A stretch of DNA of 64,000 nucleotides from Wenzhouxiangella sp. XN24 (lineage in GTDB: Bacteria; Pseudomonadota; Gammaproteobacteria; Steroidobacterales; XN24): positions 62,001 to 126,000 of the forward strand of contig NZ_JAAMFG010000021.1 of the NCBI RefSeq assembly GCF_011064545.1. Direction: 5' to 3'. Below the pieces are notes generated by a model, which saw nothing but the letters and a program-made list of their open reading frames with translations, was not told where the DNA came from and did no database searches. The translations under genes and the position numbers were made by a program. Positions 46,719-64,000 of the stretch are shown here, one piece after another. Position 1 is the first letter of the stretch, and each line of letters opens with the position of its first letter.

Positions 46719-46798
46719 TCGACCCTTCGCTGGGCCCGGCTCCATGGATGCCCGGCGACTGCGCGGCCGGTATGCGGGCGTCGGTATCCCGCATCCCT

Positions 46799-46804
46799 TA
46801 GAAT
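46799..46804 (+). promoter_or_regulatory. candidate -10 box for the AbgT-family gene
   Basis: TAGAAT, five of six consensus bases, lies 33 bases before the GTG at 46837. No clear -35 match is present. It lies downstream of the alternative ATG at 46744, so it supports the later start. Confidence 0.35.
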
Positions 46805-46836
46805 ACGTGCTCTTTTTGCCCAGCGGGACATTGCCG

Positions 46837-48584: not shown

Positions 48585-49136
48585 ATGCAGGCGAGCGGAA
48601 CTCATGTCCGGCAGGGTGCGCGCGGCCCTTGGGGCACGGGCTCACTGGTATCTCGTGTGCTGGGGGCAAGCACGGTAATCTTCGCTTTCTGGCTGGTGAT
48701 TTCCGCTTCGCTGTCGCCCGCCGACTTGCTGCTCGGCGCCGCCCTGTCCCTGTTGCTGGGCGCCTGGTCCGCCAGGTTCCTCTGGGCCGGCCAAGTTCCG
48801 CGCATAACGGCTCGCCAATGGCTTGCCTTGTTGCGGACGCTGCCGGTCTTCAGCGCTGCGGTGTTCATGTCCGCGCTGCATGTCGTGCGGATCGTGGCCG
48901 ATCCGCGCCTCCCAATCAGCCCGCGCCTGGTGATCTGTCGCAGCCGCTTGCGTCGTCCCGTCTCCCGGGTGGCCTTTGCCAATGCCGTCACCTTGACCCC
49001 CGGCACCTTGACCGTCGATGTCGAGGACGGCGTGTTTCTCGTGCACTGCCTTGACGAGGCCTGTGCGCAGCGTTTGCAGGACGGTGCCCTGGAGAAGCGC
49101 ATCGCACGGATCTTCGAGCCGGAGGCGAGCGCATGA
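48585..49136 (+). CDS. mrpE: Na+/H+ antiporter subunit E, cluster 1 (MrpE/MnhE)
   Basis: 183 residues, ATG with CCGGAG upstream. Helices at about 25-65 precede the soluble MrpE domain, whose block AFANAVTLTPGTLTVDVED is the family signature, followed by VFLVHCLDE. MrpE is a small structural membrane subunit of the multisubunit cation/proton antiporter. It is the first gene of a nine-gene run in which nearly every junction overlaps or is within 5 bases. The stop overlaps mrpF by 4 bases. Confidence 0.9.
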   Translation: MQASGTHVRQGARGPWGTGSLVSRVLGASTVIFAFWLVISASLSPADLLLGAALSLLLGAWSARFLWAGQVPRITARQWLALLRTLPVFSAAVFMSALHVVRIVADPRLPISPRLVICRSRLRRPVSRVAFANAVTLTPGTLTVDVEDGVFLVHCLDEACAQRLQDGALEKRIARIFEPEASA

Positions 49137-49411
49137 ACGCCTTCTTCTGGGGCTTGGGGACCTTCTTGCTGATCAATGCATCCGCCTGCGTGTGGCGCGC
49201 CTTCGCCGGTCCGACCGCGGTGGACCGGATACTGGCGACGAACGTGATCGGCACCAAGGCACTGCTCGTGCTGGTGCTGCTGGGGCTGGCCTTCGAACGC
49301 AGTCTCCTGCTGGACGTCGCGCTGGTCTACGGCCTGCTGAATTTTGGCATCACCATAGCCGCCACGCGGTTCCTCGAGACGGGCCGGCTGACAGGAGGTT
49401 GGCAGCGGTGA
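49133..49411 (+). CDS. mrpF: Na+/H+ antiporter subunit F, cluster 1
   Basis: 92 residues, three helices. WRAFAGPTAVDRILATNVIG and LLLDVALVYGLLNF are the MrpF motifs (GP-x-x-x-DR and DVAL-Y). It packs against the MrpE and G subunits in the membrane. ATGA overlap with mrpE before it and GTGA overlap with mrpG after it show translational coupling. Confidence 0.92.
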   Translation: MNAFFWGLGTFLLINASACVWRAFAGPTAVDRILATNVIGTKALLVLVLLGLAFERSLLLDVALVYGLLNFGITIAATRFLETGRLTGGWQR

Positions 49412-49731
49412 GCGGCTGGATCGTATCGTCCTTGACCGTCGCGCTGGCGACGCTTGGCGGCGTGTTTTTCCTGGCGGGCACACTGGGTTTATTGCGCTTG
49501 CCGGATTTCTATTCCCGTGCGCATGCCGCAACGAAGTGCGACACCGTTGGGGCCGGGGCCATTCTGCTGGGGCTGGCGATCTACGTCGCTCCCCATCCCG
49601 AGGCGCTGAAAATCATCGTCTTGCTGGTGCTGGTGCTCATTTCCAGCCCGACCGCCGGGCATGCATTGGCGCGGGCGGCCCATGGCACCGGGCTGGCGCC
49701 CTGGACCGAATCGCAGGAGGGAGACGAATGA
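49408..49731 (+). CDS. mrpG: Na+/H+ antiporter subunit G, cluster 1
   Basis: 107 residues from GTG 49408 with AGGAGG nine bases upstream. Three helices; the loop motif GLLRLPDFYSRAHAATKCDTVGA is diagnostic of MrpG/MnhG. It is the third of the small E-F-G set that forms the cation-path side of the complex in the Mrp structures. The stop overlaps the next start by 4 bases. The Cys in this motif is uncommon but tolerated in homologues. Confidence 0.9.
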   Translation: MSGWIVSSLTVALATLGGVFFLAGTLGLLRLPDFYSRAHAATKCDTVGAGAILLGLAIYVAPHPEALKIIVLLVLVLISSPTAGHALARAAHGTGLAPWTESQEGDE

Positions 49732-49970
49732 GCCAGGGCTTCGACCTCGTGATGTTGGCACTGCTGATCGGCATGGCGCTCGCCGTGGCCCGCAGCAAGG
49801 ACCTGGTTGCTGCAGCCATCATCTTCTCCGGCTACAGCCTCGTGATGTGCCTGTTGTGGCAGCATCGCGGCGCTCCCGACGTGGCGATGACAGAGGCGGC
49901 GATCGGCGCCGGGGTCACGACGATCCTGGTGCTGCTGGCCATCGGCCGCACACGGCGGCGTGAAAAATGA
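49728..49970 (+). CDS. MbhD/DUF4040-type subunit, cluster 1 (split from MrpA)
   Basis: 80 residues, three helices. RGAPDVAMTEAAIGAGVTTI is the MbhD (DUF4040) signature, normally part of the C-terminal portion of long MrpA. Its free-standing form matches the archaeal membrane-bound hydrogenase/Mbs module and the split-MrpA (group 2-type) bacterial operons. The carboxylate of this motif belongs to the cation/proton path. It overlaps both neighbours by 4 bases. Confidence 0.85.
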   Translation: MSQGFDLVMLALLIGMALAVARSKDLVAAAIIFSGYSLVMCLLWQHRGAPDVAMTEAAIGAGVTTILVLLAIGRTRRREK

Positions 49971-50695
49971 ACCGGGTGCTGATCGTGATCGTCCTGCTCG
50001 CGGCCGCAGTGCCGATGCTCGCGGGTGTCGCCGGCCTGCCCCGGCCAGGTGATCCGACGGCGCCGGTGCATACCCATGTCGCGTCACACTACGTCAAGGA
50101 GGGAGCGGAGGCATCGGGCGCCGCCAACCTGGTCACGGGCGTGTTGCTGAACTATCGCGCCTTCGACACTTTCGGCGAGGTGATGGTGATCTTTGCGGCG
50201 CTCGCCGCGCTGACCGGTGTAAGTTCGTTACCGCCAGGACAGCGGCTCCGTGAATCCGGCGGGCGGAACGATTCGCCCGGACCTGCAGGCCGTCCCATCA
50301 GCCCGGTGGTGGCCTTCATCATTCGCTGCACGGCGCCGTTCATCGCCCTATTCGGCGCCTTCGTGATCTTCAAGGGCCATGTCCATCCCGGCGGCGGATT
50401 CCAGGGCGGCGTGATTCTCGGCGCCCTGTTGATGATGCTGAGCGTGGTCTTTGGCCGCGGGCCGCGCGACCCGCTGCTGCCGCCGGCGGTCGCCGTCTGG
50501 CTCCAGGCGGCGGCGCCGCTGACTTTCGCCGCCGTCGCCGGGCTGGGCGTGTTCCTGACAGGATTCCTGCTGGGTTTTCCGGGCACGGCACTCGGGCCCG
50601 TCCGCACGCTGATGATGATCGCCCTCGAGCTGGGGATCGCCATCGGCAGCGCCGTCATCATTCTCGGACTGTTCCAGCACATGCGGGGCGACTGA
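49967..50695 (+). CDS. mrpB: MbhE-MrpB fused subunit, cluster 1
   Basis: 242 residues. The N-terminal third, LPRPGDPTAPVHTHVASHYV then GAANLVTGVLLNYRAFDTFG, is the MbhE-like part; the remainder is the MnhB domain with FKGHVHPGGGFQGGVILGAL, the key MrpB loop. About six helices. The fusion is normal for split-MrpA operons, where the piece missing from MrpA is carried by MrpB. One base separates it from the next gene. Confidence 0.88.
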   Translation: MNRVLIVIVLLAAAVPMLAGVAGLPRPGDPTAPVHTHVASHYVKEGAEASGAANLVTGVLLNYRAFDTFGEVMVIFAALAALTGVSSLPPGQRLRESGGRNDSPGPAGRPISPVVAFIIRCTAPFIALFGAFVIFKGHVHPGGGFQGGVILGALLMMLSVVFGRGPRDPLLPPAVAVWLQAAAPLTFAAVAGLGVFLTGFLLGFPGTALGPVRTLMMIALELGIAIGSAVIILGLFQHMRGD

Positions 50696-50696
50696 A

Positions 50697-51047
50697 ATGG
50701 TCGGACTCTGGCTGAACATCGACTACGCGGCCTTCGTCGCCTTGTTCTGCATCGGCCTCTACGTCGTTCTCGCCAAGCAGAACCTGATCAAGAAGCTTCT
50801 CGGCCTCAACATCATGGAGACGGCGGTGTTCGCCTTCATAGTCACCTCCGGCATGGTCGACTTCGGCGCCGCGCCAATCATCTCGGACGACACGACGGGT
50901 CCGTTCGCCAGCCCTTTGCCACATGCCCTGATCCTGACGGGAATCGTCGTCGCGCTCAGCATCACCGCATTGGCGCTGGGCCTGATCGTCGAGATCTACC
51001 GGCGCTGCGGCACGATCGAAGCCGACGAGCTCAAAGGGGTCGAGTGA
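50697..51047 (+). CDS. mrpC: Na+/H+ antiporter subunit C, cluster 1 (NuoK-like)
   Basis: 116 residues, three helices. The NuoK-like pattern LIKKLLGLNIMETAVFAFIV, with the conserved Glu in the second helix, and the closing PHALILTGIVVALSITALAL identify MrpC/MnhC. It links the small subunits with the MrpD-type channel. It overlaps the next start by 4 bases (GTGATG). Confidence 0.92.
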   Translation: MVGLWLNIDYAAFVALFCIGLYVVLAKQNLIKKLLGLNIMETAVFAFIVTSGMVDFGAAPIISDDTTGPFASPLPHALILTGIVVALSITALALGLIVEIYRRCGTIEADELKGVE

Positions 51048-52522
51048 TGGATCTCTGGCTGCCCCTGGCGGCCGGGGTGCCGCTGGTGGCCGGCGCGCTG
51101 ACGCCCGCCATCGCGCGGCGTCATCCCGGCCTGGCCCGGCCCTGGGCGCTCGCCGTGACGGCGTGGGTGCTGGCAGCCACGGTGGGGCTCACGCGACGGG
51201 TGGTGCTGGAGGGTCCGTTCTCGTATCCGCTTGGCGGGTGGGCGCGACCGTACGGCATCGAGTTGCGCTTCGACGAGTTCAGTGCCGCAGCGGTCGTCAT
51301 CGCCCTGGTCGCCGGCCTCGTGCTGGTGTACTCCGGCCCGTACATGCGCGTCGCGCTGCGCGAAGCACGCCTTCCCTGGTACTACAGCCTGTTGCTGATC
51401 AACCTGGGAGGGCTGATCGGCTTCGTCACGACCGGCGACCTCTTCAACCTGTTCGTGTTCATGGAAATCGTCTCCGTGTCCAGCTACGCGCTGGTGGCGG
51501 TCGCCGGCGGAAGAATCGCGCCGCTTGCAGCGTTCAAGTACCTGATAGCCGGCGCGGTTTCATCAGCGCTCATCCTGTTCTGCATTGGTGTTCTGCATGC
51601 ATTGACCGGCAGTCTGAACATGGCCGACATCGCTGCGCGGCTTGCGACGGCCGAGGCGCCGGCGCCGATTCTGCTCGCCCTGGCCGGCTTGACCGCCGGC
51701 CTGATGGTGAAGTCAGCGCTGTTTCCCATGCATGCCTGGCTGCCTGACGCCCATGCCAGCGCCCCAAGCCCGGTCAGCGCGATCCTCTCGGCGCTGGTCG
51801 TGAAGGTCGGCGTCTTCGGGCTGTTGCGCGTGTACCCGATGTTCGCCGCCGCCGAGGCCGTGCGGCTGGCGCCGATGTACGAAATCCTGGCCTGGCTCGG
51901 CGCGCTCTCGATCGTCGCGGGTGCGCTGTTCGCGCTGTTCCAGCAGGACATCAAGCTGATGCTGGCGTACTCGACCATTTCCAATATCGGCTACATCGTC
52001 CTCGGCATCGGGTTGGCCAACGAGCGGGCCATGACCGGCGCGGGCATCCACATCGCCAATCACGCGATCATCAAGGCCACGCTGTTCCTGGCCGCCGGCG
52101 CGATCATTCACCAGACGGGTCGCCGCACGCTGCACGCCTTGCGCGGCGTCGGACACGTGATGCCGTGGACCTGCCTGGCATTGGCGGTGGGCGTGTTCTC
52201 GATCGTCGGGTTGCCGCCGACCGCCGGCTTCCCCGGCAAGTGGTACATCGCGCTCGGCGCACTCGATGCGGGCCGGCCGGGGTTTGCTGTCGTGCTCCTG
52301 GCCGGCGCGGTGCTGATCTTCGTCTATTACATCAGGATCCTGAACGCGTTCTACTTCCGGTCCCCGTCCGAAGTCGGGATGTTGTCGGCACGCGAGGCAC
52401 CGGCCGCAATGCTGCTGCCGGTGCTGGTGCTTGCCGTGCTGTGCCTTGCCGGCGGGTTGCTCGGTCGCTGGCCGGCCATGTTGATCGGTCCGGCCATCGC
52501 CCGGTTCCCCGGGGGAGGCTGA
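51044..52522 (+). CDS. mrpD: MrpD-type antiporter subunit, cluster 1 (first NuoL/M/N-like)
   Basis: 492 residues from GTG 51044 (ATG 51047 is equally possible). Fourteen or so helices. Proton-channel residues are in place: Glu in LFNLFVFMEIVSVSSYALVA, Lys in GLMVKSALFPMHAWLPDAH, Lys in NHAIIKATLFLAAG, and the end-helix GLPPTAGFPGKWYI. It is the closest match to MrpD of known operons. It pairs with mrpC in the membrane arm. The next antiporter-like gene starts 4 bases on. Confidence 0.9.
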   Translation: MMDLWLPLAAGVPLVAGALTPAIARRHPGLARPWALAVTAWVLAATVGLTRRVVLEGPFSYPLGGWARPYGIELRFDEFSAAAVVIALVAGLVLVYSGPYMRVALREARLPWYYSLLLINLGGLIGFVTTGDLFNLFVFMEIVSVSSYALVAVAGGRIAPLAAFKYLIAGAVSSALILFCIGVLHALTGSLNMADIAARLATAEAPAPILLALAGLTAGLMVKSALFPMHAWLPDAHASAPSPVSAILSALVVKVGVFGLLRVYPMFAAAEAVRLAPMYEILAWLGALSIVAGALFALFQQDIKLMLAYSTISNIGYIVLGIGLANERAMTGAGIHIANHAIIKATLFLAAGAIIHQTGRRTLHALRGVGHVMPWTCLALAVGVFSIVGLPPTAGFPGKWYIALGALDAGRPGFAVVLLAGAVLIFVYYIRILNAFYFRSPSEVGMLSAREAPAAMLLPVLVLAVLCLAGGLLGRWPAMLIGPAIARFPGGG

Positions 52523-52526
52523 GATC

Positions 52527-54002
52527 ATGGACGTCGTCGATCTGCGTGTCGTGCTGGCGCCGGCGATCTCGTTCGGTTGTGCGGTGCTCATCTTTCTGCT
52601 GGGCGCACGCGCGCTCTGGCGCCGAGTGCTCGCGCTCGGCGCGGCGGTCACGAAGTTCATTGTCATTCTTTCACTGCTGCCCGGCAGTCTTGCCGGCAAG
52701 GTCTATGTCTTCGAGGTCCTCGAGTTCCTGCCCGGGGTCGGCATCAGTTTCCGCGCCGATGCGCTCGGGATGTTCTTCGCTCTTGTCTCGTCCACGCTCT
52801 GGGTGCTGACCACGGTCTACGCCATCGGCTACATGAAAGGGCGGCATGCGCGGGTGCGGTTTTTCGGTTTTTTCGCGCTGTGCGTATCGACCACGGTCGG
52901 CATCGCCTTCGCCGAAAACCTGCTCACGTTGTTCCTGTTCTACGAGATGCTGACGATCTGCACTTACCCGTTGGTGGTGCACGACGAGACGCCTGAAGCG
53001 CTCAGCGCCGGTCGCAAGTACCTCGCGTACACGCTGCTGGGCGGCGCGGCCCTGCTGCTCGGCATGATCCTCGTTCAGTCTCTCGCCGGCACGCTCAGCT
53101 TCAGTCATGCCGGCGTGCTGCCCGCGGCCGCGGGCGACGGACTGTTGCTGGCGACTTTCGTGACGTTGATCGGGGGCTTCGGCGTAAAGGCGGCCATCAT
53201 GCCCTTGCACGGCTGGTTGCCTGCGGCCATGGTGGCGCCGACCCCCGTGAGCGCGCTGCTGCATGCGGTGGCGGTGGTGAAAGCCGGTGTGTTCGGCATC
53301 CTGCGCGTAATCCACAACATCTTCGGCGTCGATCTGCTGGCCGAGCTCGGTTACGCAAGCTGGCTGGCCTGGGTCGCCGCATTCACCATCGTCGCGGCGT
53401 CGCTGATTGCGCTGGCGCAGGATAATCTCAAGCGTCGGCTGGCGTACTCCACGATCAGCCAGTTGTCCTATATCGTGCTCGGCGCAGCCCTGCTGACCCC
53501 CTTGGCGGCACTGGCAGCGGTCGTGCACATCGCCAACCAGGCCTTCGCCAAGATCACGATGTTTTTCGTCGCCGGCGCGATCGAGCGCAGCAGCGGCAAG
53601 ACCCAGGTGCACCAGTTGGCGGGCATCGGGCGGACCATGCCGTGGACGATGGGAGCTTTCACCATCGCCGCACTGAGCTTCATCGGTGTGCCGCTGTTCG
53701 CCGGCTTCGTGACCAAGTGGTACCTGTCGCTCGGCGCGCTGCAGGCCGGCGAGTGGTGGTTCGTGTTGCTGATGATTCTGAGCGCGCTCCTGAACGCCGC
53801 CTACTGGCTGCCGATCGTTTACCTGGCGTGGTTCCGTCCATCTGCGGCCGAGTCCGCACCGATTCGCGAGGCCGAGGCGCTGCTGCTGGTCCCGACCCTG
53901 GTTGCGGCGGCCTATGTGCTGCTGCTGGGCATCAGCATGCGGATTTCCTGGCTGCCTTTCTCCCTGGCGCAGGCCGCGGTGCGTTTCGTGGCGGGGTTGT
54001 GA
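52527..54002 (+). CDS. second NuoL/M-type antiporter subunit, cluster 1
   Basis: 491 residues. YEMLTICTYPLVVHDETPEA gives the conserved Glu; GGFGVKAAIMPLHGWLPAAM gives the Lys/His core; FAKITMFFVAGAIERSS and FVTKWYLSLGA complete the motif set. The HDETPEA loop and the VHIANQAF helix are shared with the third subunit and with the truncated gene at the window end, a distinct subgroup that differs from MrpD. It could replace the missing long MrpA channel in this split system. It follows mrpD directly. Confidence 0.85.
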   Translation: MDVVDLRVVLAPAISFGCAVLIFLLGARALWRRVLALGAAVTKFIVILSLLPGSLAGKVYVFEVLEFLPGVGISFRADALGMFFALVSSTLWVLTTVYAIGYMKGRHARVRFFGFFALCVSTTVGIAFAENLLTLFLFYEMLTICTYPLVVHDETPEALSAGRKYLAYTLLGGAALLLGMILVQSLAGTLSFSHAGVLPAAAGDGLLLATFVTLIGGFGVKAAIMPLHGWLPAAMVAPTPVSALLHAVAVVKAGVFGILRVIHNIFGVDLLAELGYASWLAWVAAFTIVAASLIALAQDNLKRRLAYSTISQLSYIVLGAALLTPLAALAAVVHIANQAFAKITMFFVAGAIERSSGKTQVHQLAGIGRTMPWTMGAFTIAALSFIGVPLFAGFVTKWYLSLGALQAGEWWFVLLMILSALLNAAYWLPIVYLAWFRPSAAESAPIREAEALLLVPTLVAAAYVLLLGISMRISWLPFSLAQAAVRFVAGL

Positions 54003-54006
54003 AGCG

Positions 54007-55500
54007 ATGAATACACACGACGCCATGAGCTTCCTGCCGCTGCTGGCTATCCTCCTGCCCGCCGTGGGCGGTGCGCTCGCGGTGCCGCTGGAGCGCCGCG
54101 GTGCGCGTTGGCGCAACCGGGCGCTCGGTGCAATCTCCATCGCCACCTGCCTGCTGACGGTGGCGTTGCTCCCGGGCGCCCTGGACGCGGTGCCGCTGGA
54201 GTTGCCGCTCTTGCAGTTGACGCCCCAAGTCTGGCTGCACCTGCGGGTGGACGCGCTGGGTGCGCTGTTCGCCGCGACCCTCTCGTTGCTGTTCCTGCTG
54301 GCGCTGGTCTATGCCGCCGCGTACCTGCCGCCACGCGGCCGGCTGGCGCGTTATTACGGCTTCCTGATGCTCTGCCAGGGACTGATGCTCGGCGTGGCTT
54401 ATGCGGGCAACCTGCTCACTCTGCTGGTCTTCTACGAACTGTTTTCTCTCCTCACTTACCCGCTCGTCATCCACGACGAGACACCGAAGGCCATGCGTGC
54501 CGGCCTGAAGTACATCGTCTACATCCTGGTCGGCGGCAGCGCCGTGTTGCTCGGCGTCATCGTCAGCTTCTACCTCGCGGGTGATCGGCCTTTCGCACCG
54601 GGCGGCCTGCTGGACGCCGACATGGATCCCACGTTGCTGCGCCTTGCGTTCTGGTCCTTCATCGGCGGCTTCGGGGTCAAGGCAGCCCTGATGCCGCTGC
54701 ATGGGTGGGTGCCTGATGTTCACCCCGCTGCCCCGGCTTCGTTTTCCGCGCTGCTGTCCGGGGTCATGGTGGCGGCCGGGTGCTTCGGCATCCTGCGCGT
54801 CGTCTTCGAAGTTTTCGGCGTCGAGTTGACGCGCTCGCTGGGTGTCGGGCCGTGGCTGGCGGTGATTGCCTCGGTATCGGTGTTGCTGGCCGCCGTCCAG
54901 GCCGTCGGCGAGGATGACCTGAAGCGCCGGCTGGCGTGGTCCACGATCAGCCAGATGGCCTATGTATTGCTGGCGGTCTCGCTGCTTGCGCCGGCGGTGA
55001 CCGTTGGCGCGCTGGTCCATATCAGCCACCACGCGTTCCTGAAGGGTGCGTTGTTCTTCTGTGCAGGGGCATTCGCGCGTCGTGCCGGGATCCGGCGGGT
55101 ATCCGAGCTGGACGGCATCGGCCGGCGCATGCCCGTGACCACGGCGGTGTTCGTGATCGCCGCCCTCGGACTCGTGGGCGTGCCGCCGTTATCGGGTTTC
55201 GTCAGCAAGTGGCTGCTCGGTATCGGGATGCTCGAGGCCGGCGCACCATGGGCGCTGGTCGTCCTGCTCGGGGGTGCGCTGTTGGCGGCGATGTACCTGT
55301 TGCCGCCGGTCTGGCGCGCCTGCTTCGGTGCACTGCCTGAGAGATCGGTGGCGGCGAGAGCGGACGTGCGGGGCGGCATGCGATTCGCGCTGATCATGGC
55401 GGCGGCAGTCAGCGTGTTGCTGGGACTCGCTGCGGCACTGCCGGGGTTGCCGTTGTCCCTCGCGCGGCGGGCCGTGGGCGCCTTTTTCGGGGCGGGCTGA
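54007..55500 (+). CDS. third NuoL/M-type antiporter subunit, cluster 1
   Basis: 497 residues from ATG 54007. YELFSLLTYPLVIHDETPKA, GGFGVKAALMPLHGWVPDVH, HHAFLKGALFFCAGAFARRA and FVSKWLLGIGMLEAG keep all charged channel positions. It resembles the preceding gene more than mrpD, suggesting duplication in place. Fourteen helices are likely. It is separated by 4 bases from the gene before it and by 1 base from the gene after it. Confidence 0.85.
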   Translation: MNTHDAMSFLPLLAILLPAVGGALAVPLERRGARWRNRALGAISIATCLLTVALLPGALDAVPLELPLLQLTPQVWLHLRVDALGALFAATLSLLFLLALVYAAAYLPPRGRLARYYGFLMLCQGLMLGVAYAGNLLTLLVFYELFSLLTYPLVIHDETPKAMRAGLKYIVYILVGGSAVLLGVIVSFYLAGDRPFAPGGLLDADMDPTLLRLAFWSFIGGFGVKAALMPLHGWVPDVHPAAPASFSALLSGVMVAAGCFGILRVVFEVFGVELTRSLGVGPWLAVIASVSVLLAAVQAVGEDDLKRRLAWSTISQMAYVLLAVSLLAPAVTVGALVHISHHAFLKGALFFCAGAFARRAGIRRVSELDGIGRRMPVTTAVFVIAALGLVGVPPLSGFVSKWLLGIGMLEAGAPWALVVLLGGALLAAMYLLPPVWRACFGALPERSVAARADVRGGMRFALIMAAAVSVLLGLAAALPGLPLSLARRAVGAFFGAG

Positions 55501-55501
55501 G

Positions 55502-58075
55502 ATGATGCTCCAGGCATCGGTTCTGCCCCTGTTGCTGGTAGCCGGCCCGCCGCTGGCGGCACTCGCCCTGGGACCGCTGGGGCGGCGCTCGGAGGCCGTG
55601 CGCGATGTGTTCATGGTCGCAGTCACCGCGCTGGCGCTGCTCGGGGCCGCGGCGCTGGTGCCGCTCGTGACCGCGCACGGGGCGATCCATGCGGAGTGGC
55701 CGTTGCTGCCGGGCGGGCTGGTATTCAAGGTCGATCATTTCGGCGCGCTGTTCGCGTTGTTCAGCGCCTTCGTCTGGTTCTGCGCCACGCTCTATTCGCT
55801 GGGCTACCTGCGGGCGCAACCGCGGCGCAATCGCTTCCATGCCGCTTCGCTGGTGGTGCTTGCGGCCAATCTCGGCGTGGTGCTGGCGGGAAACCTGGTG
55901 ACCCTGTTCGTGTTCTTCGAGTTGCTCGGCCTGGTCGCGTTCCTGCTCGTCGTCCACGCCGGCACGGCCGAGGCGAAACGGGCCGCGGTGCAGTATTTCT
56001 GGATGACGCTGCTCGGGGGCTTCGCCTTGCTGGCGGGCGTCATGATCATCGTCACGATGGGTGACGGCACGCTGACGCCGATTCACGTGGAGGAAGGGCA
56101 GTCCGGCTTGCGCAGCGCGGCGGCCGTGCTGCTGTTGATCGGTTTCGGCGTGAAGGCCGGCATGGTGCCGTTGCATGTCTGGCTGCCCAACGCGCACCCG
56201 GTGGCGCCTTCGCCGGCCAGTGCGCTCTTGTCCGGCGTCATGATCAAGGCCGGCGCCTACGGCATCTTCCGTTGCCTCTCGACCCTGTTCCGCCCTGGCG
56301 TCGGCACCGACTTCGCGGATCCGGCATGGCAGTTCAGCAGCGTCCTCGGTCTCGCGGTCGTGTGGCTCGGGATCCTGACCATGGCGGTGGGCGTGGTGCT
56401 CGCGCTCGGCCAGCGCAACGCGAAACGGATGCTCGCTTATCACAGCATCAGCCAGGTGGGCTTCATCCTGGTGGGGATCGGCGCCGGCGCCTACCTGCTG
56501 GAGGACGGCGCCATGGGTACGGCGGGCGGCCTGTTGCACACGGTAAACCACGCGCTGTTCAAGGCATTGCTGTTTCTCGGCGTCGGCGTCGTGTCGTTGC
56601 GCACCGGGCAGCTCGACATGTACGCGCTCGGTGGCTTGTGGCGACGGATGCCGGTCACCTTCGCGCTGATGCTGGTTGCGGCCGCCGGGATCACGGGCTT
56701 GCCGCCGTTCAATGGTTTCGTCAGCAAGTGCCTGGTTCATCATGCGCTGGTCGCCGCGCAGGCCGCACAAGGAGGTATCGCGCTGCGCCTCGCCGAGGGC
56801 GTCTACCTGCTGGTCTGCGCCGGCACCGTAGCCTCCTTCATCAAGCTGATCGGCCTGGTGTTCGTCGCGCCTGCGCGCACCCGGTGGGGCGCCGAGGTGC
56901 GGGAGGCGTCCCCCGGGATGCTGGTGGCGATGACGTTGCTGGCGTGTCCGGTGATTCTGCTCGGCTTGCGGCCCGAGCTGCTGCTGAAGGGCATGATCGC
57001 GCCGGGATTGGCATGGTGGTCGATGCCGCATGCCGCCATCGACCATTACCTGGCCCACTATTACCTCGCGCCGCGCGATGTGCTCACTGCTTTTGCCACC
57101 TTCGGACTGGGCGCGGCCATCTTCGCCATCGGCACCCGGATGGGCGTTTTCCATCTGCGCGGTCCCAGGTGGATGAGCGTCGCACGAGCCTACGGGGCGA
57201 TCGCGCGGGGCAGCGTCCGCGCCTGTGTCGGAACCGCCTTCGTATACGCCCGGTTCCAGCATCGCCTGGCCTGGAGCTTGCGCGAGATACGACGCCTGCT
57301 CTGGCAGGTTGCGCACCAGGCAGGGCAGGCCAGGCGCCGCTTCGTCGAAACGGTGTTGGCCGGAGTTGCCGCAACGGCGGAGCAGGCATTCCTGGAATCG
57401 GCGTGGCTGCTGCTGGACGAGGAACGCGTCGCCACGACCAATGCAGCTGCCTCGCGTCTTCTTGAGCAGGCGCGCACAGACGGTGCGGCAAGTCCGGTGC
57501 GTGCGGTTCCGCCGATGGAATCTGCCCGGGCGATCGCCGGGTTGTTGGCCGGCGCGTTGTTCGAGGCCCGGCTAGCCTTGTTGCGGCGGATCGGCGATGC
57601 ACACGGTGCGGCCGCGCAGCACACGGCGCTCGACGCGCTTTACCGTGAATTTCCCGCGACCCGGGCGGCGATCGCCGCGGCCGCGGCCGAACTGGCGCCT
57701 GCGCATGACGCGGGTGAACCCCCCGGCCCGGAAGTGGCGTCGATTCTCGGACCGCTGCTGACCCGCGAGCGCCTGGCCGTGCCGGCAGCCTGGCATCCGG
57801 CGCCGGGTGCGATCGAAGACGGGAGCGCGGATGTCCCGCAACTGGAATTCAGCCTCGCCGCGTGGCTGCTGGACATCGGGCGCCTGGCGCTTTCCCAGCT
57901 CCGCCAGCCGCTGTCTGCGCGATCCAGTGCCGAGACGCTGGATGCCCAGCCGGGCATCGTGTTCGCCCGGCGAAAAATACAGCGTTACGGGCGGGACATC
58001 AGCCTGAACGTGGCGACGATGTTTGTACTGCTGGTGTTGCTGGCTGGCGCACTCTGGCTGGGGCGGAGCGGCTGA
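55502..58075 (+). CDS. large NuoL-type subunit with novel C-terminal extension, cluster 1
   Basis: 857 residues, far above the usual 450-620. Residues about 1-500 are a NuoL/HyfB-like channel: FELLGLVAFLLVVHAGTAEA, GFGVKAGMVPLHVWLPNAHP, ALFKALLFLGVG and FNGFVSKCLVHHAL. After one more helix (about 525-548, VLTAFATFGLGAAIFAIG), residues about 560-825 form a soluble Ala/Arg-rich helical region of unknown kind, with LAWSLREIRRLLWQVAHQAG and SRLLEQARTD. A last helix (832-852) follows. The extension has no recognisable catalytic motif and no cysteine cluster. It might tether a partner or form an amphipathic lateral arm like that of NuoL. It is the last gene of cluster 1. Confidence 0.82.
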   Translation: MMLQASVLPLLLVAGPPLAALALGPLGRRSEAVRDVFMVAVTALALLGAAALVPLVTAHGAIHAEWPLLPGGLVFKVDHFGALFALFSAFVWFCATLYSLGYLRAQPRRNRFHAASLVVLAANLGVVLAGNLVTLFVFFELLGLVAFLLVVHAGTAEAKRAAVQYFWMTLLGGFALLAGVMIIVTMGDGTLTPIHVEEGQSGLRSAAAVLLLIGFGVKAGMVPLHVWLPNAHPVAPSPASALLSGVMIKAGAYGIFRCLSTLFRPGVGTDFADPAWQFSSVLGLAVVWLGILTMAVGVVLALGQRNAKRMLAYHSISQVGFILVGIGAGAYLLEDGAMGTAGGLLHTVNHALFKALLFLGVGVVSLRTGQLDMYALGGLWRRMPVTFALMLVAAAGITGLPPFNGFVSKCLVHHALVAAQAAQGGIALRLAEGVYLLVCAGTVASFIKLIGLVFVAPARTRWGAEVREASPGMLVAMTLLACPVILLGLRPELLLKGMIAPGLAWWSMPHAAIDHYLAHYYLAPRDVLTAFATFGLGAAIFAIGTRMGVFHLRGPRWMSVARAYGAIARGSVRACVGTAFVYARFQHRLAWSLREIRRLLWQVAHQAGQARRRFVETVLAGVAATAEQAFLESAWLLLDEERVATTNAAASRLLEQARTDGAASPVRAVPPMESARAIAGLLAGALFEARLALLRRIGDAHGAAAQHTALDALYREFPATRAAIAAAAAELAPAHDAGEPPGPEVASILGPLLTRERLAVPAAWHPAPGAIEDGSADVPQLEFSLAAWLLDIGRLALSQLRQPLSARSSAETLDAQPGIVFARRKIQRYGRDISLNVATMFVLLVLLAGALWLGRSG

Positions 58076-58221: not shown

Positions 58222-58962
58222 ATGAGCCATGCCTACCGGGAAGACCTGTCCTGGATCCACGATCTCGGTTTCGGCGACCTCGCGCGCAACGCGGGCGAGT
58301 TGTTGCTGCGGAAACTGGCGGAGGAAGGCATCGACGCCGGACGGGTGATCGACCTCGGCTGCGGCTCGGGTGTCCTCGCGGCCATGGTGTCCGACGCGGG
58401 TTATGACGTGCTGGGCATCGACCTGTCGCCGGCGATGATCGAGCTGGCGCGTGAACGCGTACCCGACGGCCGGTTTCTCTGCGAATCGCTGCTGAAAGCC
58501 GAGCTGCCATCGTGCGTTGCGGTCGTGGCGGTGGGCGAGTGCTTCAACTATCGTTTTGACGAGAGTGTTTCTCGCGAGGCATTGCGCGGACTGTTCGGCC
58601 GGATTCACGCTGCGCTGCAGCCGGGTGGACTGTTGCTGTTCGATGCCGCCGAGCCCGGGCGCCTCGCGGGAGAAGAAGAACTGAAGACCCATGTGGACGG
58701 GGGTGACTGGGCGCTGCTGATGAGCGCCGAAGAAAACCCGCAGGCCCGTCGCCTGATCCGGTGCATCACGAGTTTTCGGCGCGTCGGCGACCTGTTCCGG
58801 CGCGATGACGAATGCCATGAAATGGAACTGCTGCCGGCCGACGAGTTGCTCGCCGACCTGTCGTCAACAGGTTTCGACGCTGAACTGCTCGAGGACTATG
58901 CGGGCTACGCCCTGCCCGCCGGCTTGAGGGGGTTCCTGGCGAAGGCTCGTCGTATCGACTGA
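58222..58962 (+). CDS. SAM-dependent methyltransferase between the two antiporter clusters
   Basis: 246 residues from ATG 58222 with AAGGAG upstream. Motif I VIDLGCGSGVLA near residues 42-53 and the GIDLSPAMIELAR motif II give the SAM-binding class I fold. VAVGECFNYRFDE and GGLLLFDAAEPG resemble small-molecule methyltransferases of the UbiE/Tam-like group. The substrate is unknown. It is not part of a normal Mrp operon. It is followed 26 bases later by the cluster 2 mrpE, so it may be its first transcribed gene. Confidence 0.8.
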   Translation: MSHAYREDLSWIHDLGFGDLARNAGELLLRKLAEEGIDAGRVIDLGCGSGVLAAMVSDAGYDVLGIDLSPAMIELARERVPDGRFLCESLLKAELPSCVAVVAVGECFNYRFDESVSREALRGLFGRIHAALQPGGLLLFDAAEPGRLAGEEELKTHVDGGDWALLMSAEENPQARRLIRCITSFRRVGDLFRRDDECHEMELLPADELLADLSSTGFDAELLEDYAGYALPAGLRGFLAKARRID

Positions 58963-58988: not shown

Positions 58989-59528
58989 ATGCCCGCAAAC
59001 ACGCGCCACGCGCCCGCCGCCCGGGACCCTGCCCGCTGGCAGGACGGGTTGCGGCGCGTGCTGCTGTTTGCCGTGCTCTGGTGGATTCTCGCCGAGGGAG
59101 CCGTAGACAGCCTGGCCGTTGGCGTGCCCTTCGTGTTGCTTGGAGCGTGGCTCAGCCTGGTGTTGTGGGGTGCGCGTTCCTTCTCCCTGCGGGGCCTGGC
59201 GCGCTTCCTGCCATGGTTCGCCTACCAGTCCCTCGCCGGCGCGACGGATGTCGCGATGCGGGCCTTTCGCCCTGCAATGCCACTGCACCCGGGCCTGGTC
59301 CATTGCCGCCTGCGCCTGCCGACCGACGGCAGCCGGATCGCCCTGGCCGATGTGGTGAGCATGTTGCCCGGCACGCTGAGCGCGGATCTCGACGGCGAAG
59401 AACTCGTCATTCACGCCCTGGACACGCGCCGTGACATGCAGGCGATGGTGACGGATCTCGAGCCGCGCATTGCCGCCTTGTTCGGGCTGGACGCCTCGTT
59501 CCAGGAAATCCCGGAGAACGCGTCATGA
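58989..59528 (+). CDS. mrpE: MrpE-type subunit, cluster 2
   Basis: 179 residues. Diverged from the cluster 1 copy, but keeps the domain: helices at about 25-65, then VHCRLRLPTDG and LADVVSMLPGTLSADLDGEE, and LVIHALD. It begins the second antiporter cluster. Overlap with mrpF is 4 bases. The N-terminus is longer and basic (MPANTRHAPAARDPARW). Confidence 0.85.
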   Translation: MPANTRHAPAARDPARWQDGLRRVLLFAVLWWILAEGAVDSLAVGVPFVLLGAWLSLVLWGARSFSLRGLARFLPWFAYQSLAGATDVAMRAFRPAMPLHPGLVHCRLRLPTDGSRIALADVVSMLPGTLSADLDGEELVIHALDTRRDMQAMVTDLEPRIAALFGLDASFQEIPENAS

Positions 59529-59800
59529 ACGTTCTGCTCCTGGGTGTTGCCACGTTCCTGTTGTTCAACCTGGCCGCCGGCCTGTGGCGCGTGATGCGCG
59601 GCCCGACCGCTGCCGATCGAATGCTCGCCGCGCAGCTGTTCGGCACGACGGCCGTCGCGGTATTGCTGCTACTCGCGGAAGGCATGGAGGAAGCGGAGCT
59701 GCGGGATATTGCGCTGGTGTTCGCCCTGCTGGCGGCGGTGGCCGCCGTGGCCTTCGTGCGCCGCGTATGGAGTCCGGGAGCCAGGCATGACGCCGATTGA
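59525..59800 (+). CDS. mrpF: MrpF-type subunit, cluster 2
   Basis: 91 residues, three helices. WRVMRGPTAADRMLAAQLFG and ELRDIALVFALLAA keep the family motifs (GPT-x-x-DR and D-x-AL-F). The last 14 bases overlap the next gene. It differs enough from the cluster 1 copy to suggest an old duplication or a separate acquisition. Confidence 0.87.
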   Translation: MNVLLLGVATFLLFNLAAGLWRVMRGPTAADRMLAAQLFGTTAVAVLLLLAEGMEEAELRDIALVFALLAAVAAVAFVRRVWSPGARHDAD

Positions 59801-60089
59801 TTTCCTGAGCGCCGGCCTCGTCCTCGCGGGAGCCGGGTTCTTTTTCGCCGGCACCGTCGGCATGCTGCGCTTTCCCGACGTCTACAGTCGCCTGCACGCG
59901 CTGACGAAAGGGGACAACGCAGGCCTCGGCTTGACTGTGCTCGGCCTCGCGCTCCAGGCGGAATCCCTGGCCGTCGTCGGCAAGCTGGTGATGGTCTGGC
60001 TGCTGGTGCTGCTCGCCGGGGCCACGGCTTCACACCTGATCGCGCGCTCCAGCCTGCGGCGCGGCATCGACCCGTGGACCGCCCGATGA
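59787..60089 (+). CDS. mrpG: MrpG-type subunit, cluster 2
   Basis: 100 residues from ATG 59787. GMLRFPDVYSRLHALTKGDN is the MrpG motif, followed by two helices. No good ribosome-binding site is visible, consistent with coupling to mrpF. The 3' end overlaps the MbhD-type gene by 4 bases. Confidence 0.87.
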   Translation: MTPIDFLSAGLVLAGAGFFFAGTVGMLRFPDVYSRLHALTKGDNAGLGLTVLGLALQAESLAVVGKLVMVWLLVLLAGATASHLIARSSLRRGIDPWTAR

Positions 60090-60385
60090 GCGCCGGCCTG
60101 GTACTCGACGGCCTGCTCGCCGCCATTCTCATCTGGCTGGCCTGGGCGGCGTTGTCCAGCCGTGACCTGTTCCGCGCGATCGTCCTCTTTATCGCATTCG
60201 GCCTGGTGCTTTCGATGGCCTGGGCGCGGCTCGGCGCACCCGATGTGGCACTGGCCGAGGCGGCGATCGGCGCCGGCCTGACGGGCGCCTTGCTGCTGGC
60301 GACCTGGGGCCGCCTGCGTGGCCGGAAAACAAGCGAAGAACAGCCGCACGCGCGGCCACACCAGGGTGAAGACGATGCGGACTGA
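60086..60385 (+). CDS. MbhD/DUF4040-type subunit, cluster 2
   Basis: 99 residues from ATG 60086. Motif RLGAPDVALAEAAIGAGLTG is intact, matching the cluster 1 copy, so the split-MrpA arrangement is shared by both clusters. A polar tail of about 25 residues (RKTSEEQPHARPHQGEDD) is extra. It overlaps the next gene by 11 bases. Confidence 0.82.
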   Translation: MSAGLVLDGLLAAILIWLAWAALSSRDLFRAIVLFIAFGLVLSMAWARLGAPDVALAEAAIGAGLTGALLLATWGRLRGRKTSEEQPHARPHQGEDDAD

Positions 60386-61058
60386 GCGGGGCACGCATGA
60401 ACCTGGCGTCATGCTGCGCGGGATGCTCGCGGTATTGCTCCTCGGCGTCGCCTCCGGATTGTGCTGGCTGCTGTGGGCCACGCCGCTGGCGCCCGGACTC
60501 GACGACGCGGTGCGCGCCGCGTTGGCACAGAGCGGCGTCGAGAACCCGGTGACCGCGGTGCTGCTCAATTTCCGGGGCTATGACACCCTGCTGGAGATCG
60601 CCGTGATGACCTCGACGCTGGTCGGCGTCTGGGCGCTGGGTCCGGCGCCGAAGTTGCATGAGCGGCCGCCGAGCCCGGTGCTGCTCGGCCTGGACAGCGT
60701 CCTCATTCCCTTGTCCGCGGTGATCTGCGGCTACCTGCTCTGGGTGGGGGCGACACGTGCGGGTGGCGCCTTCCAGGCCGGCTCCGTGCTTGCGGCTACC
60801 GGGGTCTTGTTCATCCTTTCCGGGCGGCGCCCGCGCATCGGCCTGCCTCATGCGCCGATGCGCTGGGGCGTGGTCCTTGGACTCGCGACGTTTCTCGTCG
60901 TGGCCCTCGCCGTGATGGGCGACGGCCGGCAGTTTCTCGAGTATCCGCCCGGCTCCGCCAAGACATTGATCCTCGTGATCGAGGCGGCCGCGACCCTTTC
61001 GATCGCCGTGATTCTCGCCGGGCTGTTCATCGGCGGCCGGCCGGGTGACGAGCCGTGA
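60375..61058 (+). CDS. MbhE-MrpB-like subunit with degenerate B loop, cluster 2
   Basis: 227 residues from ATG 60375; ATG 60411 is an alternative. The N-terminal MbhE-like part has NPVTAVLLNFRGYDTLLEI, parallel to cluster 1. The B loop, which in cluster 1 reads GHVHPGGGFQGG, here reads GATRAGGAFQAG (about residues 125-136), with both His lost but the Gly/Phe/Gln frame kept. It has about seven helices. The change could alter cation selectivity or assembly. It overlaps mrpC by 4 bases. Confidence 0.75.
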   Translation: MRTERGTHEPGVMLRGMLAVLLLGVASGLCWLLWATPLAPGLDDAVRAALAQSGVENPVTAVLLNFRGYDTLLEIAVMTSTLVGVWALGPAPKLHERPPSPVLLGLDSVLIPLSAVICGYLLWVGATRAGGAFQAGSVLAATGVLFILSGRRPRIGLPHAPMRWGVVLGLATFLVVALAVMGDGRQFLEYPPGSAKTLILVIEAAATLSIAVILAGLFIGGRPGDEP

Positions 61059-61378
61059 ACGGCTTGACCGTCTTCGCCCTCACCGGGATCGGCCTGCTGG
61101 TGATCGGCGTATGGGCGCTGGTGTTGCGAGCCCACCTGATCCGCAAGGTGCTCGCCCTCAACGTGATGGGCAGCGGCGCGTTCCTGTTGCTGGTCGGCGC
61201 CGGCGCCGGCGCCGCGCCGGACCCGGTTCCACAGGCGATGGTGATCACCGGGATCGTGGTCACGGTATCCGCGACGGCGCTGGCGCTCGCACTGGTGTTG
61301 CGCATCGACGCCGCCACCGGCAAGCCGACGCTGCCGGAAGACCGGGATCGGGATCTCATGGACGAGGACTGGCAGTAG
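61055..61378 (+). CDS. mrpC: MrpC-type (NuoK-like) subunit, cluster 2
   Basis: 107 residues from GTG 61055. LIRKVLALNVMGSGAFLLLV corresponds to the cluster 1 sequence but has Gly where that copy has the conserved Glu of IMET (VMGSG against IMETA). The end PQAMVITGIVVTVSATALAL matches well, and the C-terminal tail is acidic (PEDRDRDLMDEDW). The lost Glu may affect coupling. Six bases precede the next gene. Confidence 0.85.
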   Translation: MNGLTVFALTGIGLLVIGVWALVLRAHLIRKVLALNVMGSGAFLLLVGAGAGAAPDPVPQAMVITGIVVTVSATALALALVLRIDAATGKPTLPEDRDRDLMDEDWQ

Positions 61379-61384
61379 ACCGCG

Positions 61385-62824
61385 ATGATTGACTGGCTTG
61401 CCGAAGCACCCTGGATGCTGCTCGCGATCGCGCTGCCGCTGCTCGGCGCGCTGCTGGCATTCCTGTGGCCCCGTCACGCCGCCCCGATCGGACTGGCCGG
61501 CGCGTTCATGAGCGCGGGCGCGGCGCTCGCGGTGCTCCTGCAGGTCGCCTTCGGCGGCCCGCGGCGCTATGAGGCGGGTGGCTGGGGCGCGCCGTTGGGC
61601 ATCGACCTGTGGGCCGACGGACTGAGCGTGCTGATGCTGGCGATGACCGCCGTCGTGGGTACCGCCGTGAGCGTCTATGCGCGGGTGTACCTGGCGGATT
61701 CCCCGGACAAGGTGCGCCGTTTCTGGCCCTTGTGGTTGTTCACCTGGGCGGCGCTGAACGCGCTGTTCCAGGCCGCAGACGTCTTCAATCTTTATGTCAC
61801 GCTGGAACTGCTCGGCCTGTCCGCCGTGGCGCTGGTGGCGCTCACCGGCACCGGACCCGCCCTCTGGGGCGCGATGCGTTATCTGCTGGTGAGCCTGCTC
61901 GGCTCGCTGGCATACCTGGTCGGCGTGGTGCTGCTGTATCACCTGTACGGCACGCTGGATCTCGCCCTGCTCGGCGAGCGCGCGGACGGTGGGCTGGCCC
62001 TGGCGATTCCGCTGGGGGCCATGGTCGCCGGATTACTGCTGAAGATCGGGCTGTTTCCCTTCCATGTCTGGCTGCCGCCGGCCCACGGCAGCGCGCGCGC
62101 GCCGGTGAGCGCGGTGTTGTCCGGCCTGGTCGTGAAGGGCGCGTTCTACCTGTTGCTGCGACTCTGGTTCACGTTCTCGCCGGAGGGCGAGGGGCTCCCG
62201 ATCCTGCTCGGGTCGCTCGGTGCGTTCGCGGTCTTCTGGGGCTCCATCCAGGCGTTGCGACAGGAACGACTGAAACTGCTCGTGGCTTATTCGACGGTGG
62301 CCCAGCTCGGTTACCTGTTCATCGCCTTCCCGCTCGCCGGGTTGGATCCCGCGCTCGCCTGGGGCGGTTCGATTTACCTGGCCCTGTCTCATGCACTGGC
62401 CAAGGGCGCGATGTTCCTCGCGGCGGGCAGCATCATGATGCAGGGCGGTCATGACGAGATCGCGGAACTCGACCGCGTCGTGGATCGCATGCCGTTGTCG
62501 CTCGCCGCCTTCGCGCTGGCCGGCATCAGCCTGGCGGGACTGCCGCCGAGCGGGGGTTTCGTCGGCAAGTGGATGCTGCTGCAGAGCGCGATGGCGCAGG
62601 GCCTCTGGTTCTGGGCGCTGGTGATGATCGTCGGCGGGGTGCTGACGGCGAGCTACGTGTTCCGGGTGCTGGGATTCGCCTTTACGCGCTCGCCCCATGA
62701 GCATGAATCCCACAACGTGCCGCGCACCATGGAATGGACCGCGCTGCTGCTGGCGTTGGGCGCGGTGCTGCTCGGTTTCGTTGCGCCCTGGGCGCTGCCG
62801 CTGCTCGACGGGGTGCTGCCGTGA
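61385..62824 (+). CDS. mrpD: MrpD-type antiporter subunit, cluster 2
   Basis: 479 residues from ATG 61385. Channel residues: Glu in FNLYVTLELLGLSAVALVAL, Lys in LLLKIGLFPFHVWLPPAHGS, Lys in SHALAKGAMFLAAG and GLPPSGGFVGKWML. About fourteen helices. It aligns better with cluster 1 mrpD (51044) than with the other three channels. A 4-base GTGA overlap leads into the next subunit. Confidence 0.88.
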   Translation: MIDWLAEAPWMLLAIALPLLGALLAFLWPRHAAPIGLAGAFMSAGAALAVLLQVAFGGPRRYEAGGWGAPLGIDLWADGLSVLMLAMTAVVGTAVSVYARVYLADSPDKVRRFWPLWLFTWAALNALFQAADVFNLYVTLELLGLSAVALVALTGTGPALWGAMRYLLVSLLGSLAYLVGVVLLYHLYGTLDLALLGERADGGLALAIPLGAMVAGLLLKIGLFPFHVWLPPAHGSARAPVSAVLSGLVVKGAFYLLLRLWFTFSPEGEGLPILLGSLGAFAVFWGSIQALRQERLKLLVAYSTVAQLGYLFIAFPLAGLDPALAWGGSIYLALSHALAKGAMFLAAGSIMMQGGHDEIAELDRVVDRMPLSLAAFALAGISLAGLPPSGGFVGKWMLLQSAMAQGLWFWALVMIVGGVLTASYVFRVLGFAFTRSPHEHESHNVPRTMEWTALLLALGAVLLGFVAPWALPLLDGVLP

Positions 62825-64000
62825 ATGCCTGGCTGCCGCTGATGGTGCTCGCCAGTTCGCTGGTCCCCGGCATGATCATCTTCATGCTGCCGGAGAAGGC
62901 CGTCGCGCTGCGCACGACGCTGAACCTCGGCGGCGCGATTCTCAAGATCGTGCTCCTCGTGCTGATGATGATCGGCGTATTCCACGGTGTCGAATACGAG
63001 TTCCGCCTGCCGCTGGTGCCGGGCCTGGATTTCGTCCTGCATGCCGACGCCCTGTCGCTGATGTTCGTGAACCTGTCGGCGGTGCTGTGGCTGGCCACCA
63101 CGGTGTATGCCATCGGCTACCTCGAGGGTTCACCCAACCGCAGTCGTTTCTTCGGCTATTTCAGCCTGTGCGTGACCGCCACCGTCGGCCTGGCGATGGC
63201 GGGCAACCTGCTCACCTTCCTGGTCTTCTACGAGGCATTGACGCTGACGACGTATCCGCTCGTGGTCCACCGCGGCACCGAGGCGGCGCGCAAGGCCGGC
63301 CGCAGCTACCTGGCGCACACGCTGTTCGGCGGGGTGCTGCTGCTCGCGGGCACGGTATGGCTGTATTCGCTGACCGGCACGCTGGAGTTCGTCGACCGCG
63401 GATTCATCGCCGGGCGGGGGATCGATCCGGACGTGCTGCGCATGATCTTCGTGGTGCTGATTCTCGGCGTCGGCGTGAAAGCCGCCATCCTGCCGTTGCA
63501 CGGCTGGCTGCCGCAGGCCATGGTGGCGCCCGCCCCGGTGAGCGCGTTGCTGCACGCGGTGGCGGTGGTCAAGGCCGGCGCATTCGGCATCGTGCGCATC
63601 GTCTACGACGTGTTCGGCATCGAGTTCGCCGCGAGCCTCGGCGTGACCCTGCCGCTCGCCATCCTGGCTGCCGTGACGATCATCTATGCTTCCGTGCGCG
63701 CCCTGTTCCAGGACGACCTGAAACGGCGCCTCGCGTTTTCCACGGTCAGCCAGGTGTCATACATCACGCTGGGGGTGGCCATCGCCGGGCCCATCGCGAC
63801 CATCGGGGGGCTGGTGCATCTCGTGCACCAGGGTTTCATGAAGATCACGCTGTTTTTCTGCGCCGGCAATTTCGCCGAGACTCTCGGCGTGCACAAGGTC
63901 AGCGAAATGCGTGGCATCGGCCGGCGCATGCCCTGGACGATGGGGGCGTTCACGCTCGCGGCGTTCGGCATGATCGGCGCGCCGCCGATGGTCGGCTTCA
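62821..64000 (+). CDS. NuoL/M-type antiporter subunit, cluster 2 (3' end outside window)
   Basis: Starts at GTG 62821 overlapping the mrpD stop; about 393 residues are visible and the frame is still open at the window end. YEALTLTTYPLVVHRGTEAA, GVGVKAAILPLHGWLPQAMV and HQGFMKITLFFCAGNFAET show it to be the counterpart of the cluster 1 gene at 52527. It suggests that cluster 2 also has several channel subunits, with more expected downstream. The C-terminal third is missing from view. Confidence 0.88.
   Translation, partial: MNAWLPLMVLASSLVPGMIIFMLPEKAVALRTTLNLGGAILKIVLLVLMMIGVFHGVEYEFRLPLVPGLDFVLHADALSLMFVNLSAVLWLATTVYAIGYLEGSPNRSRFFGYFSLCVTATVGLAMAGNLLTFLVFYEALTLTTYPLVVHRGTEAARKAGRSYLAHTLFGGVLLLAGTVWLYSLTGTLEFVDRGFIAGRGIDPDVLRMIFVVLILGVGVKAAILPLHGWLPQAMVAPAPVSALLHAVAVVKAGAFGIVRIVYDVFGIEFAASLGVTLPLAILAAVTIIYASVRALFQDDLKRRLAFSTVSQVSYITLGVAIAGPIATIGGLVHLVHQGFMKITLFFCAGNFAETLGVHKVSEMRGIGRRMPWTMGAFTLAAFGMIGAPPMVGF

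Follow-up and report, generated by a model that had tools for sequence, protein, structure and literature searches.

Why an antiporter-like subunit encoded at the end of an Mrp-like gene cluster should continue far beyond its channel was considered here. The gene in question lies on the + strand at positions 55502-58075 of the window, i.e., the stretch of 64,000 nucleotides from Wenzhouxiangella sp. XN24 that was analyzed, and is separated by a single base from the stop codon of D3, the antiporter-like gene just upstream. A first-pass annotation of this DNA had described an 857-residue NuoL-like protein with a complete channel over about its first 500 residues, and both descriptions proved sound. 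The sequence translates into 857 codons without an internal stop, orthologs exist in other genomes, and Pfam (PF00361) and NCBIfam models place the product, termed P1, among antiporter-like subunits of the NuoL/MrpD/HyfB type.

The proton channel domain of P1 spans residues 1-505 (55502-57016, + strand), as defined by PF00361, PF00662 and an AlphaFold2 model. PF00361 was matched by residues 129-423 (E 2.1e-54; 185.1 bits, relative to a cut-off of 21.5) and PF00662 by residues 74-112, and the domain carries E140, K218, H225, K249, H346, H350, K354 and K409. In a 16-row alignment, K218 and K409 are conserved in all rows, E140 in 14 and K249 in 13. We take E140 to be the glutamate of TM5 and K218, K249 and K409 to be the lysines of TM7, TM8 and TM12, respectively, with E140, K218, K249, K354 and K409 presumably playing the roles of their counterparts in NuoL and Mrp. 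Comparison of whole P1 with PDB sequences yielded 103 matches at E 0.01; an MBH antiporter subunit, MrpA chains, and MBS and FHL subunits headed the best 60 of the 103 that were examined. In the model, ten-residue blocks of the channel mostly scored 85-98 pLDDT, and structural alignment with MrpD, NuoL, MrpA and their relatives gave Z values of 42.5-47.0 among the best 50 entries listed. As judged from its sequence and model, the channel of P1 looks ordinary and appears functional.

P1 is the last gene of cluster 1, a tight run of ten genes on the + strand. It is preceded by sequences encoding an MnhE-type subunit (48585-49136; PF01899), an MrpF-type subunit (49133-49411; PF04066), an MnhG-type subunit (49408-49731; PF03334), a separate MbhD-type subunit (49728-49970; PF13244), an MbhE-MnhB fusion (49967-50695; PF20501 and PF04039), an MnhC/NuoK-type subunit (50697-51047; PF00420) and three antiporter-like subunits, namely, D1 (51044-52522; PF00361), D2 (52527-54002; PF00361) and D3 (54007-55500; NCBIfam subunit D models), the tails of which comprise 16, 16 and 17 residues, respectively. 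With Pfam-assigned E, F, G, B and C genes and D-type genes, cluster 1 holds the gene content of Mrp/CPA3 systems. Mbh/Mrp-type clusters, for which homologies between subunits have been described (PMC7419157), show the order E-F-G-MbhD-MbhE/B-C-D, relative to which cluster 1 contains three extra antiporter-like genes. The identical ten-gene order, from E to P1, was found in Thioalkalivibrio sp. XN8 and in the metagenome-assembled genome FCS_Gamma_003. In a tree with long branches, P1 and its XN8 copy occupied a branch of their own and D3 fell near D2 types. No hydrogenase or other electron-transfer subunit was detected by Pfam or NCBIfam among the cluster 1 proteins scanned (48585-58075). The cluster is flanked upstream by a gene for an AbgT-family transporter (46477-48450) and downstream by one for a methyltransferase (58222-58962).

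The genome encodes other antiporter-like proteins as well. Past the methyltransferase gene lies a second Mrp-like cluster (cluster 2; 58989-64000 and L022:1-9595), in which four antiporter-like genes accompany E, F, G, MbhD, MbhE+B and C; contig C35 (L023) bears a third Mrp-like cluster and contig C34 (L024) complex I, with P1 being on contig C21. c2D3, the third of the antiporter-like genes in cluster 2 (L022:6306-7865), encodes 520 residues that barely match PF00361 (21.6 bits) and that are devoid of the channel lysines, with R, G and P occupying the K218, K249 and K409 columns, yet its tail still ends in a membrane helix. On this basis, c2D3 is possibly a non-conducting clamp subunit. Contig C34 also contains a DabA gene (C34:341669-343927; L046, G000:C34:336000-345000) adjoining an antiporter-like match at C34:340086-341069, and together these likely correspond to a DAB inorganic-carbon system.

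When the sequences following the channel were compared in 14 antiporter-like proteins of the genome, a survey that left out the match beside DabA, that of P1 was found to be the longest, with 352 residues lying beyond residue 505. The tail of NuoL comprises 157 residues, those of c2D4 (cluster 2), c3D3 (the third cluster) and c2D3 comprise 127, 116 and 111 residues, respectively, and those of the nine other proteins comprise 10-21 residues. The excess of P1 over NuoL is 195 residues, close to the 197 residues taken up by a predicted bundle and the linker that follows it (residues 620-816).

Examination of the tail revealed hydropathy peaks at residues 527-545 and 833-851 only, with nothing above 1.5 in between. 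The first peak corresponds to TM15 (residues 526-546; 57077-57139, + strand), modeled as a helix at 82-90 pLDDT. There follows a long, amphipathic and Arg-rich helix reminiscent of the lateral helix (HL) (residues 560-619; 57179-57358, + strand), which contains 13 charged residues with a net charge of +9 and which AlphaFold2 predicts as a single helix, with blocks of 37-59 pLDDT over residues 561-620. Next comes a predicted four-helix bundle assigned to no family and conserved in two relatives (residues 626-759; 57377-57778, + strand), with helices at residues 626-659, 669-701, 703-736 and 742-759. A poorly predicted linker (residues 760-816; 57779-57949, + strand; blocks of 31-43 pLDDT), including a short helix at residues 785-799 and an invariant LRQ at residues 800-802, leads to residues 817-856 (57950-58069, + strand), where a basic stretch (QRYxRD; net charge of +5 over residues 817-831) precedes a last, TM16-like membrane helix delineated by hydropathy and AlphaFold2 (blocks of about 36-52 pLDDT). 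The first-pass annotation had described a soluble, helical, Ala/Arg-rich region of 260 residues and a final membrane helix at residues 832-852. The composition (22.0% Ala and 11.5% Arg over residues 546-831), the largely helical model and the second hydropathy peak all agree with this description; the length of the region is, however, nearer 286 residues. The likeness to the lateral and distal helices of NuoL that had also been remarked upon holds at the level of layout, in that TM15 is followed in the AlphaFold2 model by a helix of 60 residues and, at the end, by a membrane helix.

The full-length model, built from 16 rows, three of which contained the tail, showed a mean pLDDT of 80.2 and a pTM of 0.68. 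Blocks within the bundle scored 81-93 pLDDT from residue 631 to 760, apart from 70 in the loop block at residues 661-670. The block just before the bundle core (residues 621-630) scored 61, and residues 763-841 fell below 50. When residues 556-765 were folded alone, using three rows, four helices were again predicted at about the same positions, with 77-97 pLDDT over residues 626-765. As such, the bundle is, at the level of prediction, the best supported part of the P1 tail, with the preceding helix and the final membrane helix being tentatively positioned through analogy and hydropathy. Basic residues are found after TM15 and before TM16. Since the positive-inside rule assigns basic flanks of membrane helices to the cytoplasmic side, the region between the two helices would lie in the cytoplasm.

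Residues 520-857 matched no family in Pfam or NCBIfam at E up to 1, consistent with the earlier statement that no known motif is present; a match to a named domain, which the first-pass annotation would have counted against its view, was thus not found in these collections. Against PDB sequences, the same residues gave 20 matches at E up to 10, none of them convincing (best E 0.38), a profile of three tails gave no match, and PADLOC returned nothing for residues 556-765 or for whole P1. A Foldseek comparison of the bundle with the PDB gave 167 matches at E up to 10, the best 50 of which began at 0.71 and hence did not reach 0.001, and comparison with BFVD gave 123 matches, the best of which (0.21) was not convincing. 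VIA-align over 323 chains ranked 6tgz, a cytomegalovirus IE1 chain, first (Z 9.4, rmsd 4.6, 128 residues aligned), followed by 4u5a_A (Z 8.8, rmsd 5.6, 131 aligned) and the designed filament 9k80_A (Z 8.5, rmsd 3.2, 117 aligned), with Z values under about 13 possibly reflecting merely a common bundle arrangement. The modeled bundle thus finds no convincing fold match, and a new fold is not claimed. Nothing in these searches pointed to an enzyme.

To what extent the tail is conserved was next considered. At a threshold of E 0.01, residues 535-857 were matched in five of 97 relatives, namely, the genome itself, two solid orthologs (E 5.6e-44 and 1.3e-34; Thioalkalivibrio sp. XN8 and FCS_Gamma_003) and two weak matches. 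With the whole-protein profile, three of seven genomes of the family were matched at E 1e-60 and, at 1e-75, three of the 296 searched in the order, and whole P1 at E 1e-60 matched one of 274 genomes of the class, i.e., its own. At E 0.001, the tail profile matched three of 369 genomes of the class, corresponding to its own and two marginal matches, and one of 398 genomes of the phylum, again its own. In reading these counts, it should be noted that the genome samples overlap, that absence means below threshold and that the wide searches scored few candidates per genome (e.g., 5 of up to 45), such that distant copies may be missed. The four weak or marginal matches, in G064 and G058 among the relatives and in G339 and G388 within the class (E 4.1e-4 to 6.1e-3, spanning some 50-135 residues), were attributed to chance; the frame containing that in G064 begins as a helicase-like sequence. 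No match to the bundle was found in plasmids or viral contigs. Within the genomes searched, the conserved helical bundle was restricted to this subunit type, an outcome that the first-pass annotation had named as support for its view.

The two tail-bearing relatives also contain close orthologs of D3 (64 and 66% identity), and another relative (G002) offered a single D3 match, at 44% and of the cluster 2 kind. The copies of P1 in the two relatives are 37.8 and 41.6% identical to P1 over residues 546-831, as compared to 63.5 and 69.0% over the channel. Still, 86 of 337 tail positions are invariant across the three rows, with invariant motifs in the bundle such as QAFLE.AW, so far as three sequences can suggest conservation. 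Over residues 546-831, third codon positions changed in 61.5 and 62.2% of cases, as compared to 39.5-48.0% at positions 1 and 2. Because orthologs exist and third codon positions change most, the tail is not a chance ORF.

The FCS_Gamma_003 sequences call for caution. The P1 copy in this genome (L031:8816-11119) is missing about 120 channel residues in frame, reflecting either a deletion or misassembly, and hence offers weakened support. The short direct repeat DKDAREARVEAA occurs twice between the first two bundle helices of the FCS_Gamma_003 copy (L019:11780-12907). An apparent stand-alone bundle at the end of a contig (L033; G004:C14, near 80531) agrees in its letters with the main copy over their common stretch and is preceded by unrelated sequence. 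It was tentatively read as an assembly artefact.

The explanation that we favor, and consider somewhat probable, is that P1 is a brace-bearing, proton-conducting subunit of an Mrp/Mbh-type antiporter complex comprising four antiporter-like subunits and a cation module, into which the bundle was inserted. As gene order suggests, the ten products of cluster 1 would form a single complex, in which E, F, G, MbhD, MbhE-B and C would make up the cation module and D1, D2, D3 and P1 the row of antiporter-like subunits. Protons would pass via the antiporter-like subunits and cations via the module of small subunits, a division of paths proposed for Mrp (PMC7419157). As in NuoL, MrpA and MbsH', TM15 would lead into a cytoplasmic HL that runs along the neighboring subunits and ends in TM16, thereby clamping the row. 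P1 would conform to this arrangement, albeit with some 195 additional residues separating HL from TM16, where the roughly 135-residue four-helix bundle and its flexible linker would be inserted. So positioned, the bundle would be found at the cytoplasmic surface, above those subunits that are close to the cation module, and would either extend the clamp to accommodate a fourth antiporter-like subunit or present a surface to which a soluble protein or another complex could dock. Extension of the clamp is slightly preferred, since no partner gene was seen to accompany the cluster across the three genomes. Against a need for such extension, cluster 2 contains four antiporter-like genes, two of which encode tails of only 111 and 127 residues, such that a row of four subunits need not depend on a long tail. 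When the P1 tail was compared by BLAST with those of NuoL, c2D4, c2D3 and c3D3, the best match (E 0.023 over 29 residues) was not convincing, and homology of the brace thus rests on layout.

That the bundle instead serves as a docking or sensing module for a soluble cytoplasmic partner, be it an enzyme, a regulator or a ligand, by which ion flow would be gated or used, comparable to DabA sitting on the NuoL-like DabB, is possible if rather unlikely. The prediction of a compact, confidently modeled domain beside a flexible linker and the presence of invariant motifs would suit such a role, and DAB2 offers the precedent of a NuoL-like subunit bearing a cytoplasmic protein (PMC13144422). The contact in DAB2 is, however, described as being made by DabA's own membrane fingers (PMC13144422), and the DabA gene of this genome lies on another contig with an antiporter-like neighbor of its own. 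Nor is a partner gene found in cluster 1, and of the flanking AbgT-family transporter and methyltransferase genes, a homologue of the latter is found downstream in XN8, whereas the FCS_Gamma_003 stretches searched yielded none. The first-pass annotation had suggested that the region could be a dock for another protein; neither a partner gene nor an interaction came to light, and extension of the clamp or a dimer contact would be equally possible. Its observation was confirmed and its interpretation partly supported.

We consider it improbable that the bundle represents an insertion confined to this lineage and close to neutral, tolerated because HL accepts insertions. Most insertions or substitutions of 6-7 residues in HL of Escherichia coli NuoL are described as allowing normal growth, often with reduced stability (PMC3274701), and the tail both diverges faster than does the channel and was found in one family only among the genomes searched. 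Opposing this are the retention of the tail in all three genomes with close D3 orthologs, among seven of the family, its invariant positions, the confident core of the predicted bundle and the preponderance of third-position changes. Similarly improbable is that the tail is a dimerisation device in which the bundles of two complexes would pair, by analogy with HL of MbsH', which is part of the dimer interface of MBS (PMC7684303).

Returning to the brace-bearing subunit with an inserted bundle, a more far-reaching version, in which a four-antiporter Mrp complex would be coupled to a signal or partner through a cytoplasmic domain borne on the clamp and so be controllable or linked to an enzyme, following DAB-like logic with an inserted domain, is viewed as doubtful. 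The inserted bundle would represent a well-delimited domain, amenable to removal, on an element of the complex earlier tested as a piston (PMC3274701).

Comparison with known systems delimits what P1 shares with each. NuoL, Nqo12 and ND5 share with P1 the channel fold (Z 43.0-46.1 for E. coli NuoL, among the best 50 entries listed) and, in the layout predicted for P1, the succession of TM15, a long lateral helix and TM16. Several NuoL/ND5 chains align with the P1 model out to residues 836-843, as judged by first and last aligned residues only, including 7p7e_L (Z 45.6, rmsd 2.6, 493 residues aligned, from 5 to 842). By contrast, the 157-residue tail of the NuoL of the same genome is too short to accommodate the extra bundle, and P1 is encoded in an Mrp-like cluster rather than in a nuo operon. 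MrpA (MnhA/PhaA) similarly combines a channel with HL spanning TMH15 to TMH16 (PMC7419157) and has E, F, G, B, C and D as partners. MrpA, however, continues into the MbhD/MbhE-like TMH17-21, whereas P1 presents a single hydrophobic peak past TM15 and cluster 1 encodes MbhD and MbhE+B separately.

HyfB was the best of the 75 NCBIfam matches to P1 (residues 18-533). With 306.4 bits against a cut-off of 667, P1 was not accepted as a HyfB equivalog (NF005086). The match stops at position 531 of the 669 in the profile, and among the best 25 of the 75 matches, subunit-A-type and DUF4040 profiles end at P1 residues 501-627. Alignment of the extension along known HyfB C-termini, which the first-pass annotation had said would speak against its view, was accordingly not seen. 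A subunit of a group 4 hydrogenase or FHL was also rejected, as only Mrp-type genes are found in 48585-58075 and the single match in the genome to a [NiFe] hydrogenase large subunit (PF00374) is on contig C26, rather than on that of P1. The homology reported between HycC residues 500-608 and ND3 (PMC9474812) presents another possible origin of such tails. DabB resembles NuoL, carries a short HL and has a partner in the cytoplasm (PMC13144422); P1 was not taken as DabB, since the one PF10070 match of the genome, on contig C34, is beside its own antiporter-like gene and not beside P1.

In the archaeal MBS, MbsH' additionally contains TMH15 and TMH16, which are linked via a loop and an HL that holds two antiporter-like subunits (PMC7684303), and 6u8y_X aligns with P1 at Z 43.9 (rmsd 6.1, 504 residues aligned); the description of MbsH' consulted makes no mention of a four-helix cytoplasmic bundle such as that predicted for P1. 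Multiple D genes in Mrp clusters are already known, clusters with duplicated mrpD and mrpC having been described (PMC5703873). Among the matches listed in a search of open-access titles and the starts of abstracts, with subscription papers lying outside its range, neither such an insertion nor a four-antiporter Mrp complex was encountered. The predicted brace layout and the channel of P1 are of known kinds, to which the bundle predicted within the putative clamp tail would be an addition.
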